A stretch of DNA of 32,111 bases. It comes from Caldisericum sp. (GTDB lineage Bacteria; Caldisericota; Caldisericia; Caldisericales; Caldisericaceae). Below are positions 5,416-14,639 of the stretch, one piece after another. The translations under genes and the position numbers were made by a program. The notes beneath the pieces were generated by a model. It saw only the letters and a list, made by a program, of their open reading frames with translations. It did no database searches and was not told the DNA's origin. Positions within the stretch are counted from its first letter, which is position 1. Each line of letters begins with the position of its first letter. The stretch is taken from contig JAEMPV010000062.1 of the NCBI GenBank assembly GCA_022759145.1, forward strand, positions 58,300-90,410. The letters are read 5' to 3'.

Positions 5416-5784
5416 GTGAGAGTAGAAGAAATTATTAAAACAGTTAACGCCGAAGTGCTTCAGGAAGTTGGTAATTGGGATGCAAACATTAAATACGGAT
5501 TTGCTGCAGACCTCCTCTCAGATACACTTTTTGTTATAAGCAGGGAAGAAGAATCTATTCTATTAATAACTGGCGTAACGAATCCATCAGTTGTTAAAAC
5601 AGCAAAAATACTTGATATTCCCGTAGTATTAATTGCAAGAGGAAAACCCGTCGAGAAAGAAACAATTGAACTTGCAAGAAAAGAAAAAATAATCATCTTA
5701 AGGACGCCCCATATAGTGTTTGTTACATGTGGTCTTTTGTATAAGGCAGGACTGGAAGGAGCACCTTGGAAGATACAATACTAA
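5416..5784 (+). CDS. DRTGG-domain protein
   Basis: A 122-residue single-domain protein of the DRTGG type, related to domains found beside HPr kinase and CBS-domain proteins. It shows AADLLSDTLFVI, ITGVTNPSVVKTA, IPVVLIARGKP and ETIELARKEKIIILRT in the expected order. There is no catalytic domain, so it is probably a ligand-binding or interaction module. Such proteins are frequent in hydrogenase-linked gene sets of anaerobes together with RsbW-like kinases, as here. The start is GTG at 5416, because the nearby ATG is followed at once by a stop. No ribosome binding site precedes it. The 3' end overlaps the next gene by 19 bases. The ligand is unknown. Confidence 0.8.
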   Translation: MRVEEIIKTVNAEVLQEVGNWDANIKYGFAADLLSDTLFVISREEESILLITGVTNPSVVKTAKILDIPVVLIARGKPVEKETIELARKEKIIILRTPHIVFVTCGLLYKAGLEGAPWKIQY

Positions 5785-6602
5785 TTTCTGAATTTTTTGT
5801 TTTTGGAGACGATTTTGATCATCTCGGTGACGGGACATTAAAAACAAGAGAAAGTCTTAATTCAATGCTCGATGAGTTCGACATTTATAGAAATAATCCT
5901 GCACATAAGAAAGAGAATCTTAGAAGAGTGGGTGTGTGCTCATACGAAGCAGAGTCAAATATTGTAATACATGCAAAGTTCGGAATAATAAAAACTTTTG
6001 CAAATAAAGAGAAGATAAAGACCATTGCAAAAGACATTGGACCAGGAATATCAAAACTCCTTCTTGCGTTAACTCCAGGCTACTCTACTGCTTCTGAAAA
6101 AGCAAGAAAGTTGGGATTTGGGGCAGGGATGGGATTAAAAAATATCCAGAAAATTTCAGATTTTTTTATCATAACCTCAAAATTCGGAAAAGGGACATAT
6201 CTTGCATTCGAGGTTTGGAATAGAGAAGTTTCCAAAGGGGAGGTAAAAATGAAGATTAGAGACCTCATAGATGAACTTAAATTAGAGGTACTTACAAGTT
6301 TTAATGAAAAACAACTCGATAAAATTATTGATAGCGCTTATGCAGGCGATCTTTTAAGTAGAGTCCTTGCTAAAGCAAATGAAGATAGTGCATGGATAAC
6401 AATTCAAACTAATGTAAATGTGGTAGGCGTAGCGGTAATAAAGAGGGTACCAATCATAATCGTAACAGAGGGAGAACCTATACCAGAAGAAACAATTAAA
6501 AAAGCGGAGGAAAACTCCGTTATAATAGCACGGACAATGCTTCCAACATTTGAATTATCTGGAAAACTCTATACTCTTCTTGAAAGAGAAAGGTCTAAAT
6601 AA
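5766..6602 (+). CDS. RsbW/RsbT-like anti-sigma kinase fused to a DRTGG domain
   Basis: A 278-residue two-domain protein. Residues 1-155 are an anti-sigma-type serine/threonine kinase ATPase: SYEAESNIVIHA (N box), KDIGPGISK (G1), then GYSTASEKARKLGFGAGMGL (G2) and KFGKGTYL. Residues 162-278 are a DRTGG domain with AGDLLSRVLA, IIIVTEGEPIPEETIKKAEE and SVIIARTML, paralogous to the preceding gene. The start is TTG 5766, supported by GGAAGGAG four bases upstream and overlapping the previous stop. Residue 162 is a Met with its own strong internal ribosome binding site (see 6234-6251), so a separate DRTGG product is possible. The likely role is phosphorylation or partner switching tied to the divergent NuoEF operon, which is inferred from context only. 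It ends in an 8-base overlap with the convergent gene. Confidence 0.82.
   Translation: MEDTILISEFFVFGDDFDHLGDGTLKTRESLNSMLDEFDIYRNNPAHKKENLRRVGVCSYEAESNIVIHAKFGIIKTFANKEKIKTIAKDIGPGISKLLLALTPGYSTASEKARKLGFGAGMGLKNIQKISDFFIITSKFGKGTYLAFEVWNREVSKGEVKMKIRDLIDELKLEVLTSFNEKQLDKIIDSAYAGDLLSRVLAKANEDSAWITIQTNVNVVGVAVIKRVPIIIVTEGEPIPEETIKKAEENSVIIARTMLPTFELSGKLYTLLERERSK
6234..6251 (+). promoter_or_regulatory. Internal Shine-Dalgarno and in-frame ATG
   Basis: AAAGGGGAGGT at 6234-6244 lies four bases before an in-frame ATG at 6249, exactly at the boundary between the kinase and DRTGG domains. It could start a separate 117-residue DRTGG protein in addition to the fused product. Confidence 0.6.
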
Positions 6603-9600
6603 CTTCTTCAACTGAATAGATTGTTATACCCTGGTAATTCTTTAATTTTGGATTATCATCAACAACTACATCTGTAAGTCTTAATTTCTTTGCAATTAGT
6701 ATTGCTTCACCTGTGGAAAACTTGCCTGATACTCTTTTTGCAATGTCTTCAGCAAGCCTCTCCTCGATAGTAGTAAGCCCTATAACTGTAATCCTATATC
6801 TACCTTCGACGATATCTGCAACTTCACTCTTTTGAGAAGCCGAAATACATGCTTTAGATAATAAGTCGCTCTTAAGAGATGTTGGAATATCCTCTTTTCC
6901 ATAAATTTTTCGTAGAGCGCCTGCATCTGCAACAAATTTAGATTTTAGTTCAACCTTTATAAATGTTTTCTCTTCTCCCGTAGAAACTTCACCTAAACTT
7001 TCTTCTTTTTTAACCTCCGCAGTCTCTTCGGGCTTTATTTCTTCTTTCTTTAATTCTTTTTTCTTTTTATTCTCCTCTTCGAGTTTCTTTATGAGTTCTT
7101 CAAAAGTTGATTTAAACTCTTCTTTTTTGCCCTTCTCTTCTTTAACTTCTTCCTTCTCTTCAGCTTTAGGTTCTGCTATTTTACTTATCTCTTCAGGGAT
7201 TTCTTCAAGATTAGGTTGTGCAAAATCAGCAAAGGACGGTTCGTGTTCTTCTAAAATCTCTTCCCTGGGCGCCTCCACTTTAGCTTCTGTCGGTTTTTCC
7301 TCTTTAGGTTGCTCAATAACCTGAGGTGTTGCTTCTTCCTTTTCAGCCGGTGCGATTGTTCCTTCGGACGTTATTAGTTCCTGGGTAGTTTTCTCTTGCG
7401 GAAGGACCTGCTCTTCCTGAATTGTTTTTTCTGGAACCTTCTCTTCAATCCTCACCCCTTCTTCTTTCCCTACGGGTTTTTCGACTTCCTCTACCTTCGA
7501 TTCCAGAACTTCCGGTTTTTCTTTAATTAATTTAACAGGCTCTTTTACTTCTTCTTTTATCTCCTTAAGTTGTTCTTCCTCTTTTTCTTTGGGTTGTTCT
7601 TTCTCAATGGTTAGTTTTTCGGTTCTTCTTGGAGGGACTGGTCTAAAGACTCTTCTTGTTTTCTCAATCTCTTCTTTTGGTGTTTCTTCAATAATTTGCT
7701 CGGGTGGTTTAATAGGTATAGTTTTTACTTTCGGAGGCTCACCTACGCCAAACTCTTCCCTTGCAGCTTCTACCTTTTCTTCCTTTACTTCAAGATCTTT
7801 AACATTAAATGCAATCGGCTTTTTCTTCACTTCTTCAACGCTTACAACAGGGATGTTCCTCTTTTTGCCTTTCGGAATGATGAGGATTATGACAATCAAA
7901 ACAAATAGGAAGAATATTATTGATGAAATCAAATCTACAGTTATATCTGGAATATAGTTTTTAACATATGGGTATATTTGTTCAGAAATCGGTCGTAAGA
8001 AACTGAGAATATTTGATGCAACACCTTTGAAGAATGTACTCAAGACACCTCCAATATTTTTTAAGTTGTCATTGGAAAGTATTCCTACAAAAAATGCAGA
8101 AACACTTTTAGAAATTTGGATAATGTAGTTTTTTACATTGTTAATCAAATTATTGAAATTATTACCTGTTGAAGGTTTCTCTGTGTTATTATTCTGAGAT
8201 TGCGTTGTCCCGCTTGCGTTGTTGTTACCACTTGCTACGACAACCTTTAAAGGATTGTAATTATCAACCGGCAAAAGTGTTGTAAAAATTTCTTTGTTAC
8301 CCTCGATACCAAGGTCAAAAACTGCAATCGGTTTATTTGAACTTATATTTACTGGAGAGAAACTTTCAGAAAATAGGAATGTTTTAGACTCAAAAGCATT
8401 TAAAGTAAAACTGTTTCCGTTTAAAGATACACTTGTAGATGGATCAATGCCGATTATAACAACTCTTCTTTTTCTTTCTCCGAATGTATTAGTAACCTTA
8501 CCTGTATGGAATTTAAAACTCGTGCCATTTGCAAATGACGGTATTTGTTCACCATCAACATTCCCAAATTGACCGTAAGTGTATATTAATACGGGCTTTG
8601 TAAATTCTACAAAAACCTGTTTGTATTCTGTTTCGTTGGGCTTATACTCATTTGAATTCAGAATATCAAAATACTTGAAATCATTTGCCTTTTCTAACTT
8701 TACGGTGCTACTTTTATCATTATATTTAACAGTAACCTCTGTATCATCAAAAATCGAAGACACCCCTAACCCACCAAAAGAGATAGCATTTGCCGAGTTT
8801 ATCCCATAAAGAGTTGAAAACACATTATCTTCTGCGTAACCAAATTCAATAAGAACAGGGGCACTTGATGTAACTGTATAAACTCCTTCCTGTAGCTTCG
8901 TATTACTGTAATATGAATTTGCTTTTAAAAGTGTTTCAGCAATTACACTTCCATCGCTTTTCACAATCTTAATGTTTGTGTCGGTAGTTGCTGTAATGAA
9001 AAGCGTTTGCGGAATGTAAAGCGTGAAATATGTTCCATAGACTGAGGACATATCATCAGACGAATTCTTTTCAAAAGGTGGTGTAAGTGTAGAAAGTTCG
9101 GCAAAAACGGGCAATGTTGATTTTAGTTCAAAAACTGAATCGTAAGTTAATTCAACAAATGTAAATTGAGATGTATCAAGATCTTTTTCGAAAATGGTCT
9201 TCGAGTTTTTGGTATCTACTACGGCTATATGGTTCCCATCGCCATAAGATACAATAAAAACTTTTCCTTTTTGAGGAATAATAAATTTGGTACCGATAAA
9301 GTTAGGCACATAGAAATCTTTTAGATTACCTCCAGCACCTTCATTAACAAGGGTTAAAGTTTTCTTTTCGTTAGGTGCAAGAGAAATTGCGGATTTAAAA
9401 ACAAATTTATCACCACTTTGAGAGAAAACAAGAGGAAGGGGAGTATCGCCATAAGTTAATTTAAAGTTTTGGAAGCCTTGCAAATTGCTTTTATCGACTT
9501 CAAATGTAAAAGATTTAAAGATAGGCACATTAAGTGTATTTTCAACATTAACAGTTACCCCATCCGCCCCAAATACACTGGGCGCCATTGTCAATAAAAT

Positions 9601-9636
9601 CAGTAAAGTCAAAAAACAAACCCAAAACTTTTTCAC
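6595..9636 (-). CDS. Large signal-peptide membrane protein with Glu/Lys-rich tail and PIN-like C-terminal domain
   Basis: 1013 residues. A signal peptide (1-23, ending SVFGA) is followed by about 440 residues of predicted beta-rich extracellular sequence that loosely recalls IgGFc-binding-type repeats, with GTYFTLYIPQTLFITATTDT and KPVLIYTYGQFG. Then come an Asn/Ser/Thr-rich linker (470-495), one membrane helix (568-588, stop-transfer KGKKR) and about 300 residues of Glu/Lys/Pro-rich, probably disordered or coiled tail. The final 115 residues look like a PIN-type domain: FVADAGAL (D904), STGEAILIAKKL (E977), VVVDDNPKL (D993, D994) and a final strand ITIYSVEEVI. The tail would be cytoplasmic. 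GTG 9636 is chosen because GGAAGGGG lies five bases upstream. It has its own probable promoter just after rnfB. No function can be named; a surface sensor or anchor coupled to a cytoplasmic RNA-binding or nuclease-like domain is a guess. Confidence 0.75.
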   Translation of the reverse strand: MKKFWVCFLTLLILLTMAPSVFGADGVTVNVENTLNVPIFKSFTFEVDKSNLQGFQNFKLTYGDTPLPLVFSQSGDKFVFKSAISLAPNEKKTLTLVNEGAGGNLKDFYVPNFIGTKFIIPQKGKVFIVSYGDGNHIAVVDTKNSKTIFEKDLDTSQFTFVELTYDSVFELKSTLPVFAELSTLTPPFEKNSSDDMSSVYGTYFTLYIPQTLFITATTDTNIKIVKSDGSVIAETLLKANSYYSNTKLQEGVYTVTSSAPVLIEFGYAEDNVFSTLYGINSANAISFGGLGVSSIFDDTEVTVKYNDKSSTVKLEKANDFKYFDILNSNEYKPNETEYKQVFVEFTKPVLIYTYGQFGNVDGEQIPSFANGTSFKFHTGKVTNTFGERKRRVVIIGIDPSTSVSLNGNSFTLNAFESKTFLFSESFSPVNISSNKPIAVFDLGIEGNKEIFTTLLPVDNYNPLKVVVASGNNNASGTTQSQNNNTEKPSTGNNFNNLINNVKNYIIQISKSVSAFFVGILSNDNLKNIGGVLSTFFKGVASNILSFLRPISEQIYPYVKNYIPDITVDLISSIIFFLFVLIVIILIIPKGKKRNIPVVSVEEVKKKPIAFNVKDLEVKEEKVEAAREEFGVGEPPKVKTIPIKPPEQIIEETPKEEIEKTRRVFRPVPPRRTEKLTIEKEQPKEKEEEQLKEIKEEVKEPVKLIKEKPEVLESKVEEVEKPVGKEEGVRIEEKVPEKTIQEEQVLPQEKTTQELITSEGTIAPAEKEEATPQVIEQPKEEKPTEAKVEAPREEILEEHEPSFADFAQPNLEEIPEEISKIAEPKAEEKEEVKEEKGKKEEFKSTFEELIKKLEEENKKKKELKKEEIKPEETAEVKKEESLGEVSTGEEKTFIKVELKSKFVADAGALRKIYGKEDIPTSLKSDLLSKACISASQKSEVADIVEGRYRITVIGLTTIEERLAEDIAKRVSGKFSTGEAILIAKKLRLTDVVVDDNPKLKNYQGITIYSVEEVI

Positions 9637-9652: not shown

Positions 9653-9680
9653 ATAATACAACTAAAACTTAAAATTTCAA
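9653..9680 (-). promoter_or_regulatory. Putative promoter of the 1013-residue membrane protein gene
   Basis: Minus-strand TTGAAA (9680-9675) and TATTAT (9658-9653) are 16 bases apart. The -35 box overlaps the rnfB stop codon. A short leader with GGAAGGGG follows before the GTG start. Confidence 0.5.
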
Positions 9681-9967
9681 GACTGCGATTTTGCCTCCTC
9701 CATAATTTTTCTTATTTTCTCTTCAACCTCTTTTCCACCAACAACACATGCATCATATGAAGCCCTTCCTTCAGCAATTGCTTCAGCGCAGGGATGACAC
9801 CCTGGAAAACCACATGCACCGCACTCTCCATGTGGAAGCACTTCATAGATTGCCTGTGCTAAAGGACTTTCCTCAACTTTAAATTTCTCATTAAAAACAC
9901 CCAAAAGCACGCCAAATAACGCTCCAAGGATTCCGAGAGTAAAAACAGAGATTAAAATATCTTTCAT
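9677..9967 (-). CDS. rnfB: RnfB, minimal form without ferredoxin domains
   Basis: The 96 residues correspond to only the N-terminal part of RnfB: a membrane anchor (about 5-24) and the conserved [4Fe-4S] domain with C49, C52, C57 and C74 (GECGACGFPGC; ASYDACVVGGKEV). Typical RnfB is about 270-330 residues or longer and continues into two or more ferredoxin-type clusters that accept electrons from ferredoxin. Here the chain ends in a short charged helix and a stop. Only about 40 bases separate it from the next gene, so no displaced remainder follows. It is the last gene of rnfCDGEAB, 9 bases after rnfA. Either this is the true minimal subunit and a separate ferredoxin or RnfC takes over the missing step, or the gene is truncated. 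The identification is firm; activity is uncertain. Confidence 0.9.
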   Translation of the reverse strand: MKDILISVFTLGILGALFGVLLGVFNEKFKVEESPLAQAIYEVLPHGECGACGFPGCHPCAEAIAEGRASYDACVVGGKEVEEKIRKIMEEAKSQS

Positions 9968-9976
9968 ATGCCGCTC

Positions 9977-10567
9977 CTATTTAATCATTCCACTAAATCC
10001 AAGGAAAGCAAGAGAAAGAATACCAGATATCATAAAGGCTATTGCCTTCCCTTTGAAAAATTCGGGAACATCGGAGTTTCTTAATCTTTCCCTAATGCCT
10101 GCAAGAAGAAGCATTGCAATTGCATAGCCAAAGGAAATTCCAAATCCTGAAACAATCGATTCTACAAAATCGTAATGGTTCATTGAATTAATAAATGTTA
10201 CTCCAAGTATAAGACAGTTTGTTGCAATCAAGGGAAGATAAATACCCATTGCCTTGTAAAGATTTGGGGATGCCTTTTTGATATACATTTCAACAAGACC
10301 TACAAAAGAACCAATAACGAGAATGAATGCAGTGATTTGAAGGGCAGATTGAAGTCCTGTTGGTATAAGAATCCAGTTGTCAATCATCCAGGCAAGAATC
10401 GAGGATGAAACAGTAACAAAAATAACTGCAAAACTCATACCAATGGAATTTGGCAAACTGTCAGTAAGACCGATATAAGAGCAAAGTCCCAAAAACTGAA
10501 TAAGAATAATATTATTTATAACTGCAGAAGATACAAAAATCTTAAGAAGATTCTCAATATAACTCAT
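9977..10567 (-). CDS. rnfA: RnfA, membrane subunit of Rnf complex
   Basis: The 196 residues contain about six membrane helices and typical RnfA motifs: NNIILIQFLGLCSYIG near the start, IYLPLIATNCLILG in the middle and a final helix. Cys29 and Cys118 correspond to the cysteines that, with two from RnfE, hold the intramembrane iron-sulfur centre in Rnf/NQR complexes. RnfA and RnfE form an inverted pair across the membrane and pass electrons between the ferredoxin side and the flavins on the other face. The length is normal for the family. The start overlaps the rnfE stop by 4 bases, so the two are translationally coupled. Confidence 0.95.
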   Translation of the reverse strand: MSYIENLLKIFVSSAVINNIILIQFLGLCSYIGLTDSLPNSIGMSFAVIFVTVSSSILAWMIDNWILIPTGLQSALQITAFILVIGSFVGLVEMYIKKASPNLYKAMGIYLPLIATNCLILGVTFINSMNHYDFVESIVSGFGISFGYAIAMLLLAGIRERLRNSDVPEFFKGKAIAFMISGILSLAFLGFSGMIK

Positions 10568-11169
10568 TTTTTACCTCCCTTTTTCCTGAGGTAGGTTTCA
10601 ATTGCACCTGTAAGGATACCAATCATAATAAAGCCTGAAGGCGGAAGCACCATAAGAAGCATCGGTTGGTATGAGTCGGGAAGAATTTGAATACCTGCAA
10701 GAGCACCTTTTCCAATAAGTTCTCTTACAACGGCAATTGTTAAAAGAACAAGCCCATAGCCAATTGTGTTGCCTACACCATCCAAAAATGAATCAAAAAT
10801 CCCATTTTGATAGGCAAACGCCTCTGCTCTACCTATAATAATGCAGTTTACCACAACAAGAAGGATATAAAGTTTTATTATCTGGTAAACGGCATTGAAG
10901 TATGCTTGAGAAATAAGTGCTGCTATAGTCGTAAATGCAGCGATAACCGTAACAAATATAGGAACTCTTATTTCGTTAGGAATTATTTTTCTCATCGCAG
11001 AAACAATTATGTTTGATGGTATCTGAACCATTGCAAATGCAAAAGTCATAAGAAGCGCACTTTGAACAGAATTAGAAACAGCAATAGTAGAGCATAAGCC
11101 AATCGAAATTATCAAAACAGGGTTATTTGGTATGATTGCATTCCAAATTATATCAAGTTTCTTTTTCAT
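10564..11169 (-). CDS. rnfE: RnfE, membrane subunit of Rnf complex
   Basis: 201 residues of full family length with about six membrane helices. NNPVLIISIGLCSTIAVS (Cys26) and LLVVVNCIIIGRAEAFA (Cys109) are the conserved segments that contribute cluster cysteines opposite RnfA. The C-terminal stretch MVLPPSGFIMIG is also typical. It belongs to the ion-pumping ferredoxin:NAD oxidoreductase in the cytoplasmic membrane. It overlaps rnfG upstream and rnfA downstream by 4 bases each. Confidence 0.95.
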   Translation of the reverse strand: MKKKLDIIWNAIIPNNPVLIISIGLCSTIAVSNSVQSALLMTFAFAMVQIPSNIIVSAMRKIIPNEIRVPIFVTVIAAFTTIAALISQAYFNAVYQIIKLYILLVVVNCIIIGRAEAFAYQNGIFDSFLDGVGNTIGYGLVLLTIAVVRELIGKGALAGIQILPDSYQPMLLMVLPPSGFIMIGILTGAIETYLRKKGGKK

Positions 11170-11765
11170 TGCCCTGCCTCCTTAAGATAAGAGACAATTG
11201 CCTGACCTGCAACTTTTACACCAGTCGATACTGCACGAGAAGTTATAGTTGCACCACTCATTGCAATAATATCCTCTTTAGGTATAAGTTTGTCTTTCTC
11301 AACATTTTTCCCTATAAACTGACCCAGAAAAGTTATTTTGTTCTTCTTATCAACATAATATTTAGGATTATCAGCATTCGCACCAAGTCCTGCAGTTTCG
11401 TTCAACTTAAGAATCTTAACTCCTGAAACAGTTCCATCACTTTTAATACCTACAAGCATCTCGATAGGTGCTTGAGAACCAGGAACTACAACTCTTGCAA
11501 CCATTCCAACGTTTTTCTGAGTTGACTTATCCTTTACAAGATAAGACTCAGTTATTTGAACAGATGGGTCTCCGGAGCTAATAGGTTTATCCAATTTTAC
11601 AAACTCATAATCGCCAGGAAAAATTTCAGAAAGTCCCTGTTGAAGAGCCTTTAGGTCCTGTGCTTCAATAATAGGTTTAGTTATCTGATAAACAATAGCA
11701 AGTGCAAAACCAGTAATAGCAGCAATAAGCCCCAAAGTTATAGCAAACTTAACAACACTTTTCAT
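11166..11765 (-). CDS. rnfG: RnfG, covalent-FMN subunit of Rnf complex
   Basis: 199 residues. One N-terminal membrane helix (about 5-27) precedes an FMN-binding domain exposed outside the cytoplasm. The flavinylation motif is SGAT at 170-173 (followed by ITS), where Thr173 would be linked to FMN by the ApbE flavin transferase; apbE itself is not in this window. GVKILKLNETAGLGANA is the other conserved stretch. Length and order in the operon are normal, with 4-base overlaps on both sides. Confidence 0.94.
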   Translation of the reverse strand: MKSVVKFAITLGLIAAITGFALAIVYQITKPIIEAQDLKALQQGLSEIFPGDYEFVKLDKPISSGDPSVQITESYLVKDKSTQKNVGMVARVVVPGSQAPIEMLVGIKSDGTVSGVKILKLNETAGLGANADNPKYYVDKKNKITFLGQFIGKNVEKDKLIPKEDIIAMSGATITSRAVSTGVKVAGQAIVSYLKEAGQ

Positions 11766-12751
11766 TTTGCCACCTCTTTTTTAGGGAAAACACCATAAAC
11801 CCTTGGCATAATCTTATCAAAATAAGGAACAACTGCGTTTCCTAAAAGAATTGAAAACATAACACCTTCTGGGTATGAACCAAACTGTCTTATCAATACA
11901 GTAAGGAAACCAATAAAGATTGCATAGTAAACTTTTCCAAGTGGAGTGATTGGTGAAGAACTGTAATCAGTTGCCATAAAGAAGGCACCGAGGAAAAGCC
12001 CACCTGCAAGAATCGAAAATAGCGGATCCCTTCCAAAAAGAGGAGAAAGAACAAATACAGTTGCAATATAAATCACTGGTATCTTCCAGTCGATAACTTT
12101 CCTTGCAATAAGATATATGCCGCCTATCAAGAGAAGTAGAGCGGAAGTCTCACCTAAACTACCTCCTATCGTGCCAAGGAAAAGTGCCTTGTAAAGATTT
12201 GCCTTTGTCCCAAACTCTGAAAGTAATTGTGCATATCCTTGTAACTTGACAACATTTAAGGGTGTTGCAGTGGTAATTACATCGAGTGGCTGATTAAAGG
12301 CTGAAAAGGGCTTCACCCAGGTAGTCATTTGGGTTGGCCAGGAAACCATTAAAACCGCTCTCCCCACAAGAGCAGGGTTAAATGGATTCGACCCAATGCC
12401 ACCAAAAATCATCTTTCCTAAAAGGATCCCAGAAAATGCACCGATAACAACCATCCACCATGGAGATGATGGAGGCAAGGTCATCGCAAGAAGAAGCCCC
12501 GTAACCGATGCGGAAAGGTCGTTTAAAGATGGCTTTTTATGGAAAAGTAAGTTTCCAACAACTTCAGCAAGTACTGATGATACAACAGAAACTAAAACTA
12601 CAATCAATGCCCTTATACCGAATATAAAAATACTTCCAATAAGAGCAGGGGTAAGTGCGATTATCACATCTCTCATTATGGAGGTGGTTGTAACTTTGTC
12701 TCTTATGTGTGGCGCTGATGTAACAACAAGGTCTATATCGTAATTAGCCAT
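11762..12751 (-). CDS. rnfD: RnfD, membrane flavin subunit of Rnf complex
   Basis: 329 residues with many membrane helices. Family motifs include SAPHIRDKVTTTSIMRDV at the start, DLSASVTGLLLAMTLPP, and FGGIGSNPFNPALVGRA. The covalent FMN site is DVITTATPL (157-165), with Thr163 the probable acceptor. RnfD forms the main membrane channel of the ion-pumping complex together with A and E. The gene overlaps rnfC by 8 bases and rnfG by 4. Length is normal and no motif is damaged. Confidence 0.95.
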   Translation of the reverse strand: MANYDIDLVVTSAPHIRDKVTTTSIMRDVIIALTPALIGSIFIFGIRALIVVLVSVVSSVLAEVVGNLLFHKKPSLNDLSASVTGLLLAMTLPPSSPWWMVVIGAFSGILLGKMIFGGIGSNPFNPALVGRAVLMVSWPTQMTTWVKPFSAFNQPLDVITTATPLNVVKLQGYAQLLSEFGTKANLYKALFLGTIGGSLGETSALLLLIGGIYLIARKVIDWKIPVIYIATVFVLSPLFGRDPLFSILAGGLFLGAFFMATDYSSSPITPLGKVYYAIFIGFLTVLIRQFGSYPEGVMFSILLGNAVVPYFDKIMPRVYGVFPKKEVAK

Positions 12752-14156
12752 TTTTTACCTCCTTTTGGGAGTTCTCTTTTTCTTTCATTCTCTGTGCCTT
12801 TAACTTTTCAAAGGCTGCCTGTTTTGCTGCTTCAATCTTTCTTTGCTTTATAATTGCCTGCTTTACCTTCTTTATGTTCTCTGTTAAATGCCTCTTTGCT
12901 GGACATACATAAGAGCATACACCACATTCGATACAGTCAAGAGCATGAAGTGATTCTGCAGTTTTGAGGTCGTTCTTTCTTGAGGCATGATCAATGAGAA
13001 CTGGCATAAGTCCCATAGGACAAGAGTCAACACAACTTGCACACCTAATGCAGGGTGATTCTTCTTCCGGTGCCATTTCAAGGGCTTCATCACCAAACAT
13101 AAGAATGCCGGAAGTTCCCTTAAGAACCGGCACATCAACTGTTGACTGGGCAATTCCTGTCATAGGACCACCAAATATGAGTTTTCTTAATTTTCTATTA
13201 AGTCCAAGCGTTTCTATGATAAATGAAGCAGGAGTTCCAATCCTGATAATGTAGTTTCCTGGCTTTGAAACTGCATTTCCTGAAACCGTAACGCCTCTTT
13301 CAATAAGAGGTTTGTCCTCGAGCACTGCCTCGGTAATTGCTTTGAGTGTCCCAACATTTTGGACAACCACTCCAACATCAAGAGGCAAACCACCTGAAGG
13401 AACCTCTCTTCCAAGGACAGCCTTGATGAGTTGTTTTTCTCCTCCCTGAGGATACTTGGTTTTTACAAGGACAACCTCAACATCTTTTACCCCTAACTCA
13501 TTTATCTTATTTTGAAGCACATTTGCTGCATCGATTTTGTTCTCTTCGACTGCAATAATACCCTTCTTTGCACCGGTTATCTTCATCTCAATGAGAATTC
13601 CTTTTATTATCTTCTCAGGGTATTCAAGCATATTTCTGTGGTCAACAGTAAGGTATGGTTCGCATTCAGCACCATTTCCAATGATTGTATCAATAACCTT
13701 TCCCTTTGGAGGAGTTAGTTTTACAGCAGTTGGAAATGCCGCACCACCTAAACCGACTATACCTTTTTCTCTAATAATTTTTACAAGTTCCTCACCCGAA
13801 AGATCCTCAAAAGATGATCTTGGGGTAAGTTCAACCCAGTCGTCTTTGTAATCGTTTTCAATTACAACACTTTGAACTTTTGCACCAGTTGGGCACAATC
13901 TCTCTTCAATTGCAATTACTTTTCCAGAAACGGTTGCATGCACAGGCGCAGAAACAACTTGTGTAGAATCCCCAATCTTTTGTCCAACCTTTACATAGTC
14001 ACCCACTTTTACTGTTGGAGTATTGGGTGCACCTGTGTGTTGCTGGAGCGGAATAACTGCAATTGGAGGAGCATTAAAAACTTCAAAAGGCAGATCTTTT
14101 GTTAGTTTACTCTCATCCGGATGAACGCCACCGGGTGAATAAGTAAATACTTTCAT
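12744..14156 (-). CDS. rnfC: RnfC, NADH-side iron-sulfur flavoprotein of Rnf complex
   Basis: 470 residues. Order of domains: N-terminal barrel-sandwich domain; a NuoF-like Rossmann core with GIVGLGGAAFPTAVKL and NGAECEPYLTVDHRNML; an SLBB domain; and two [4Fe-4S] sites with C369, C372, C375, C379 and C408, C411, C414, C418. It exchanges electrons with NAD at the cytoplasmic face of the Rnf complex. The C-terminus is a short Lys/Gln-rich tail, without the long repeats of some proteobacterial RnfC. It is the first of the rnf genes and starts 3 bases after the zinc-ribbon gene, so the two are probably one transcript. Confidence 0.95.
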   Translation of the reverse strand: MKVFTYSPGGVHPDESKLTKDLPFEVFNAPPIAVIPLQQHTGAPNTPTVKVGDYVKVGQKIGDSTQVVSAPVHATVSGKVIAIEERLCPTGAKVQSVVIENDYKDDWVELTPRSSFEDLSGEELVKIIREKGIVGLGGAAFPTAVKLTPPKGKVIDTIIGNGAECEPYLTVDHRNMLEYPEKIIKGILIEMKITGAKKGIIAVEENKIDAANVLQNKINELGVKDVEVVLVKTKYPQGGEKQLIKAVLGREVPSGGLPLDVGVVVQNVGTLKAITEAVLEDKPLIERGVTVSGNAVSKPGNYIIRIGTPASFIIETLGLNRKLRKLIFGGPMTGIAQSTVDVPVLKGTSGILMFGDEALEMAPEEESPCIRCASCVDSCPMGLMPVLIDHASRKNDLKTAESLHALDCIECGVCSYVCPAKRHLTENIKKVKQAIIKQRKIEAAKQAAFEKLKAQRMKEKENSQKEVKNG

Positions 14157-14159
14157 ATT

Positions 14160-14639
14160 TCACTCCTTTCGTTCTTCAAAGATAAAGCCACAGTAAGGAC
14201 AAATTTTTGCATCCTTCTCTACGATTGCTCCACATTGTGGACACTTCTTCTTTAACTGAGTAAAACAGTGCGGACAGAACAAATAGTCACTTCTCACTTC
14301 TTCACCACAAACTGGACATTTGTACAACTCTTTCTCGATCTGTATTTTGTAGTATTTCTTCTGAAGTTCTAACACCTCCTTCCTTTCTTTTTCCTCGTTT
14401 AATTCTTCGAGTGTATAAGGACTCCTTACCATAAGGTAAAATACAAGAGGCAGGATTCCACCAAGCAGGATTGTTGCAATTAACCAGCCTTTAGCGTTAC
14501 CTCCTCTTAGCCTGCTGTCGTTATACACATAAATCGCAATGGTTACAATTAGTGCTAAAAGCGAAAGAATAATGATTAAGATATCTGCCGTTGAAAAATT
14601 AGGTAAAACTGTTTTAATTACTTCAATAATTTTTTCCAT
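14160..14639 (-). CDS. Membrane protein with double zinc ribbon, leading the rnf genes
   Basis: 159 residues. Two membrane helices (about 20-38 and 52-70) are followed by a charged helix (78-104) and two zinc ribbons of the DZANK type: C108, C111, C122, C125 and C133, C136, C147, C150. The zinc ribbons would face the cytoplasm if the short loop NDSRLRGG is inside. I do not recognise a specific family. It sits 3 bases before rnfC and 15 bases after folC, with a TATAAT box eight bases before its ATG, so it may head the rnf transcript. AAGGA touches the ATG directly, too close for a normal ribosome binding site. A role in Rnf assembly is only a guess from position. Confidence 0.8.
   Translation of the reverse strand: MEKIIEVIKTVLPNFSTADILIIILSLLALIVTIAIYVYNDSRLRGGNAKGWLIATILLGGILPLVFYLMVRSPYTLEELNEEKERKEVLELQKKYYKIQIEKELYKCPVCGEEVRSDYLFCPHCFTQLKKKCPQCGAIVEKDAKICPYCGFIFEERKE

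Follow-up and report, generated by a model that had tools for sequence, protein, structure and literature searches.

What function can be served by a membrane protein that is predicted to reach from outside the cell into the cytoplasm and to end there in a domain with the fold of PIN ribonucleases is the question raised by this locus of Caldisericum sp. The window, i.e., the whole stretch of 32,111 nucleotides that was analysed, contains on its minus strand a gene (6595-9636) for a protein of 1013 residues with a GTG start, as read from the list of open reading frames and the translation. A preliminary description of this DNA, in which the strand was not given, had proposed that this reading frame joins a signal peptide, a large outer beta region, a membrane helix and a charged tail to a PIN-type domain, coupling an outside receptor-like part to a nuclease-like or RNA-binding one. 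The reading frame is real and the succession of parts from outside to inside was recovered, as follows:

9568..9636, minus strand: signal peptide with the GTG start (residues 1-23; sequence by eye, hydrophobic segment in the hydropathy scan)
8227..9564, minus strand: ectodomain, predicted all-β, IgGFc_binding-like (PF17517) (residues 25-470; AlphaFold2 and Pfam)
7858..7953, minus strand: single transmembrane helix (about residues 562-593, then KGKKR, positive-inside; hydropathy scan)
7789..7869, minus strand: conserved cytoplasmic juxtamembrane motif KGKKRNIPVVSVEEVKKKPIAFNVKD (about residues 590-616; orthologue alignment)
6961..7788, minus strand: Glu/Lys/Pro-rich cytoplasmic tail, poorly conserved (residues 617-892; composition)
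7072..7110, minus strand: short helical tail motif STFEELIKKLEEE (residues 843-855; alignments, by eye)
6598..6960, minus strand: C-terminal domain with predicted PIN fold (residues 893-1013; acid positions D904, E938, E977, D994)

The topology was assigned from the hydropathy scan and from the signal peptide, in which a positive n-region, a hydrophobic core and a cleavage-like site between VFG and AD were recognised by eye (VKKFWVCFLTLLILLTMAPSVFG followed by AD). The position of the transmembrane helix is conserved across orthologues, and the motif that follows it is present even in those that have no ectodomain. The charged tail, counted over the 295 residues 599-893, consists of 28.5% Glu, 17.3% Lys and 8.8% Pro; it varies, with frequent gaps even in comparison with the nearest species, and its short helical motif is recognisable in relatives as SSLDLLLEKVKRE or SSADLLSRLLDDE (alignments, by eye). 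Identity to the two nearest species amounts to 77-82% in the C-terminal domain, 83-88% in the juxtamembrane motif, 61-64% in the ectodomain and 48-49% in the tail, the C-terminal domain being among the best-conserved parts of the protein.

A PIN fold for this domain, as the preliminary description had anticipated, is supported by structure prediction as well as by profile comparison. The AlphaFold2 model (14 sequences) has a pLDDT of 91.4, a pTM of 0.86 and the predicted topology β-α-α-β-α-β-α-α-β-β-α, and the leading matches of a Foldseek search against the PDB are PIN/VapC structures (probability 0.99-1.00, TM about 0.52-0.61, E from 7e-4), including PAE2754, Shigella VapC and P. horikoshii VapC4. 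Searches of other kinds were negative: the fold search of the domain against viral models gave nothing below 0.001, a PDB sequence profile search with the domain gave chance matches only, no PIN match was returned for the protein by Pfam or NCBIfam or for the domain by Pfam, and neither DUF3368 (PF11848) nor PF01850 was matched by protein or domain at the curated Pfam cut-offs. When the profile of the domain was compared by hhalign with a DUF3368-type PIN alignment, a score of 38.6 (E 1e-5) was obtained, against at most 21.0 in 300 column shuffles and 9.7 for the reversed alignment; the β1 Asp, the Glu of GE(A/S) and the subsequent Asp of the DUF3368-type proteins are paired with the C-terminal domain. 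Since this link is calibrated by shuffling, the fold assignment does not depend on the predicted model alone.

The gene is universal in the class Caldisericia. The domain profile detects one copy in 43 of 49 genomes of the class, among them every one of the 23 good-quality genomes (E 6e-27 to 3e-44), and none in five genomes of the other family of the phylum. Families are given here by the anonymous labels f1 to f7, the genus of the window belonging to f1. The f6 genome, which has rnf genes, gave no match, but these genes lie on a contig of just 8 kb, so that a copy could have been missed. Roughly 330 further bacterial genomes were sampled with no convincing match and three weak ones (E 0.002-0.007), the best of which (G361, E 0.002) has the appearance of a DUF3368-type PIN protein truncated by the end of its contig; it agrees with the homology but was discarded as an orthologue. 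The gene is apparently restricted to the class, within a sample of genomes in which distant PIN relatives below the reach of the profile would escape.

Catalysis by PIN nucleases involves four canonical acids, which in SMG6 are D, E, D and D (PMC12923823). In the DUF3368 alignment the acids at positions 2, 3 and 4 are invariant (E45, E90 and D108 of L064) and position 1 is mostly Asp; these correspond to E938, E977, D994 and, for the first, D904 of the window protein, which has an acid at all four. The preliminary description had singled out D904, E977 and D993/D994 together with the patterns GEAxxIAKKL (GEAILIAKKL in the protein), VVVDD and ITIYSVEEV, all of which are found where it had located them; according to the profile alignment and the orthologues, D904, E977 and D994 do belong to the acidic set, while D993 is not the conserved acid and E938 had been overlooked.

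The nuclease-like character suggested there is doubtful. The window protein has the four acids, but in 35 of the 43 orthologues one to three of the positions carry no acid (in one truncated copy, no residue at all). The loss of these residues in homologues, which had been named as evidence against the proposal, was thus found for most of the family and not for the window protein. Eight orthologues have acids at all four positions, namely those of three species of the genus, of G009 and of four f3 genomes; 13 have three, counting the truncated f3 copy of G019 whose first position is unreadable, 13 have two and nine have one. The sole invariant acid is D904 (Asp in 42 of the 42 orthologues that reach this position), and it is the only one of the four kept in f4 and f5. 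Read in order, the four positions are DEED in G000, G002 and G003, DKFD in two congeners, DNEY or DNEH in f2, DIKA or DLRA in f4 and DKKY or DRKY in f5. At position 977, two species of the Caldisericum genus have Phe, and f4 and f5 have Lys or Arg; Tyr, His or Ala occupies position 994 in f2, f4 and f5, and position 938 is seldom acidic. Such repeated loss speaks against cleavage as the function common to the family. Judging from its residues, cleavage of RNA by the window's own domain is possible, as a property other than the conserved function.

On the outer side, residues 25-470 are predicted with moderate confidence (pLDDT 72) to consist nearly entirely of strands. The IgGFc_binding family (PF17517) matches the window protein with E=4e-4 and 20.1 bits, under the curated cut-off of 25.6 bits, whereas the ectodomains of the orthologues L043, L024, L026 and L027 match above it (e.g., E 1.9e-8); the domain search that had been suggested therefore yielded a PF17517-like ectodomain and, as described above, no Pfam PIN domain. 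Cytoplasmic PIN domains are not known in the usual members of PF17517. A fold search of the PDB with the ectodomain gave no meaningful match (TM about 0.1, generic β-proteins), and a RodZ_C-like stretch was seen in some ectodomains. The ectodomain is absent from genus g7 and from most f2 orthologues. The g7 proteins (L014-L017) have lost the β-region and kept a signal peptide-like start, the membrane helix, the tail and the PIN-fold domain. Given that the ectodomain is dispensable in these lineages, sensing of the outside cannot be the sole job of the protein.

The gene lies at the end of a cluster of rnf genes, and the features upstream of it are:

9677..14156, minus strand: rnfC-D-G-E-A-B (open reading frames, synteny and the Pfam FeS domain of RnfB; other Rnf names by eye)
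14160..14639, minus strand: membrane protein with a double zinc ribbon (Pfam DZR/Zn_ribbon_3; synteny)

The gap between rnfB and the gene is about 40 bp in the window, and the gene is probably co-transcribed with rnfC-D-G-E-A-B. Within the reach of the contigs, f1, f3 and f5 all share the order valS-folC-zinc-ribbon-rnfC-D-G-E-A-B-gene. In the f4 loci that were read (L036/L065 of G020, L037/L066 of G028 and L067 of G024), valS, folC and the zinc-ribbon gene are followed directly by the gene, the whole rnf cluster being missing; the zinc-ribbon gene still adjoins it in this family. The five f4 genomes have no full RnfC, only short ferredoxin-like cross-matches, and all five have the gene. An obligate part of Rnf was therefore discarded as an identity for the protein.

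Several other features of the neighbourhood were observed. In f2, rnfB is separated from the gene by a reading frame of the opposite strand (MPLAGDLSGFSVDEV..., DUF4388-like by eye), placed as follows:

L034, 7920-8774, strand opposite to the gene: f2 reading frame, by eye
L030, 7525-8766, strand opposite to the gene: f2 reading frame, by eye
L031, 4930-5775, strand opposite to the gene: f2 reading frame, by eye

The RnfB of the window (9677-9967) has only 96 residues, with a membrane helix and a PF04060 FeS domain, and in all of f1 the matches of this short form leave hardly any space before the following gene; RnfB reading frames of about 270-300 residues with extra ferredoxin-like Cys motifs occur in f2, f3 and f5. 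In f1, RnfB thus seems to have lost its ferredoxin part. Downstream, convergent DRTGG/HPr-kinase-N-like genes (5416-6602 of the window), one of them with a HATPase-like part, stay beside the gene in the genus and in g7. No antitoxin gene was seen next to it, the neighbours being rnfB and a convergent DRTGG/HPr-kinase-N-like gene.

The closest sequence relatives found are the DUF3368 (PF11848) PIN proteins, of which none above the cut-off occurs in the same genome. They share the β1-Asp, GE(A/S)xxI and (D/E)D/DE positions but are small (about 155-200 residues in the reading frames of most alignment members) and have neither ectodomain nor tail, and their second Glu, third Glu and fourth Asp are invariant, whereas here only D904 is, in a domain fused to a membrane protein. 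The VapC/PF01850 toxins supply the best PDB fold matches; the protein described here differs from them in having no Pfam PIN match and no adjacent antitoxin, and in being a membrane-anchored, single-copy core gene product. A PIN domain on a membrane protein also occurs in YacL-type PIN-TRAM proteins, but these begin with several helices, lack an ectodomain and continue beyond the PIN domain with a C-terminal extension, in contrast to the one helix, the long tail and the terminal PIN domain of the present protein; L075 contains a protein of 377 residues that looks like this type. The degenerate PIN domain of SMG5 resembles the present one in fold and in having mostly lost the acid set, one Asp being left (the Asp positions are not equated), but SMG5 is eukaryotic and soluble and has an active PIN partner.

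These features are best accounted for by an envelope-spanning tether or receptor with a PIN-fold docking module, nuclease activity being possible in a few lineages only; the chances of this reading are judged to be about even. It has to be weighed against an active endoribonuclease tethered to the membrane, whose PIN domain would cut RNA there whether or not the ectodomain controls it. The four acid positions are intact in the window protein, the two close species, G009 and four f3 genomes, D904 is invariant, the fold is like that of active VapC toxins, and the same genome yielded no ordinary PF01850 PIN protein that would cover such a role; however, a site that is repeatedly lost (positions 938, 977 and 994) while the gene is universal is unexpected for a conserved enzyme, and this reading is regarded as unlikely. 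Were binding by the ectodomain to control a cytoplasmic PIN endoribonuclease on its long tether, as in the coupling first proposed, the protein would be active in Caldisericum and f3 and a pseudo-enzyme adaptor elsewhere, an arrangement that appears very unlikely. The lone invariant D904 in an eroded PIN domain is reminiscent of SMG5, which gives one Asp to SMG6 (PMC12923823), and would suit a composite enzyme whose active site, in a partner or in the domain's own dimer, is made complete by the degenerate domain; but no partner PIN protein extends across the class, PF01850 matches being present in 16 of 49 genomes, and the chance of such an enzyme is slim.

The neighbourhood and the architecture suggest roles of other kinds. 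An accessory subunit or regulator of the Rnf complex would be in keeping with the gene's place at the end of the operon, with the order retained in f1, f3 and f5 and with the short gap behind rnfB; it is made decidedly improbable by the f4 genomes, where the gene stands without full RnfC at the same valS-folC-zinc-ribbon place where this was read, and by the opposite-strand reading frame of f2. A membrane helix, a long linker and a C-terminal globular domain are also the architecture of a ZipA-like tether for the division or shape machinery, for which the RodZ_C-like stretch of some ectodomains and the distribution of SepF (PF04472) could speak: SepF is missing from all f1 genomes (G000 included) and f2 genomes searched. 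Most f3, f4 and f5 genomes have SepF, however, and the gene as well, a co-occurrence by which a substitute for SepF was ruled out, and no known FtsZ-binding domain could be linked to the protein by sequence; a tether of this kind is considered a remote prospect.

According to the preferred reading of an envelope-spanning tether or receptor, the β-domain would bind or sense the envelope's outer layer, and on the inner side a partner, protein or RNA, would dock on the PIN-fold domain, which a tether of ~300 residues holds at its end. The membrane anchor, the tether and the PIN-fold domain are the conserved features, the surface β-domain being usual. Since erosion of the acid set has left D904 as its one constant member, the PIN-fold domain of most lineages would not cut RNA; this absence of catalysis is inferred from the residues alone, and the composite active site formed with a partner PIN domain in SMG5-SMG6 (PMC12923823) is a point against it. 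The position behind rnf would reflect a transcript shared in several families and not an obligate role in the Rnf complex.

The protein presents a PIN-fold domain in an unusual setting, a membrane protein with an outer β-domain, and its orthologues form a natural series of active-site states, with four, three, two and one acids, which makes the evolution of PIN pseudo-enzymes testable. The envelope of Caldisericum exile shows an outer-membrane-like layer in electron microscopy, yet no BamA was found (PMC4104836). Present in one copy across the class, to which it is apparently confined, and extending through the membrane from the outside to the cytoplasm, the protein makes a good candidate for a missing component of this envelope.
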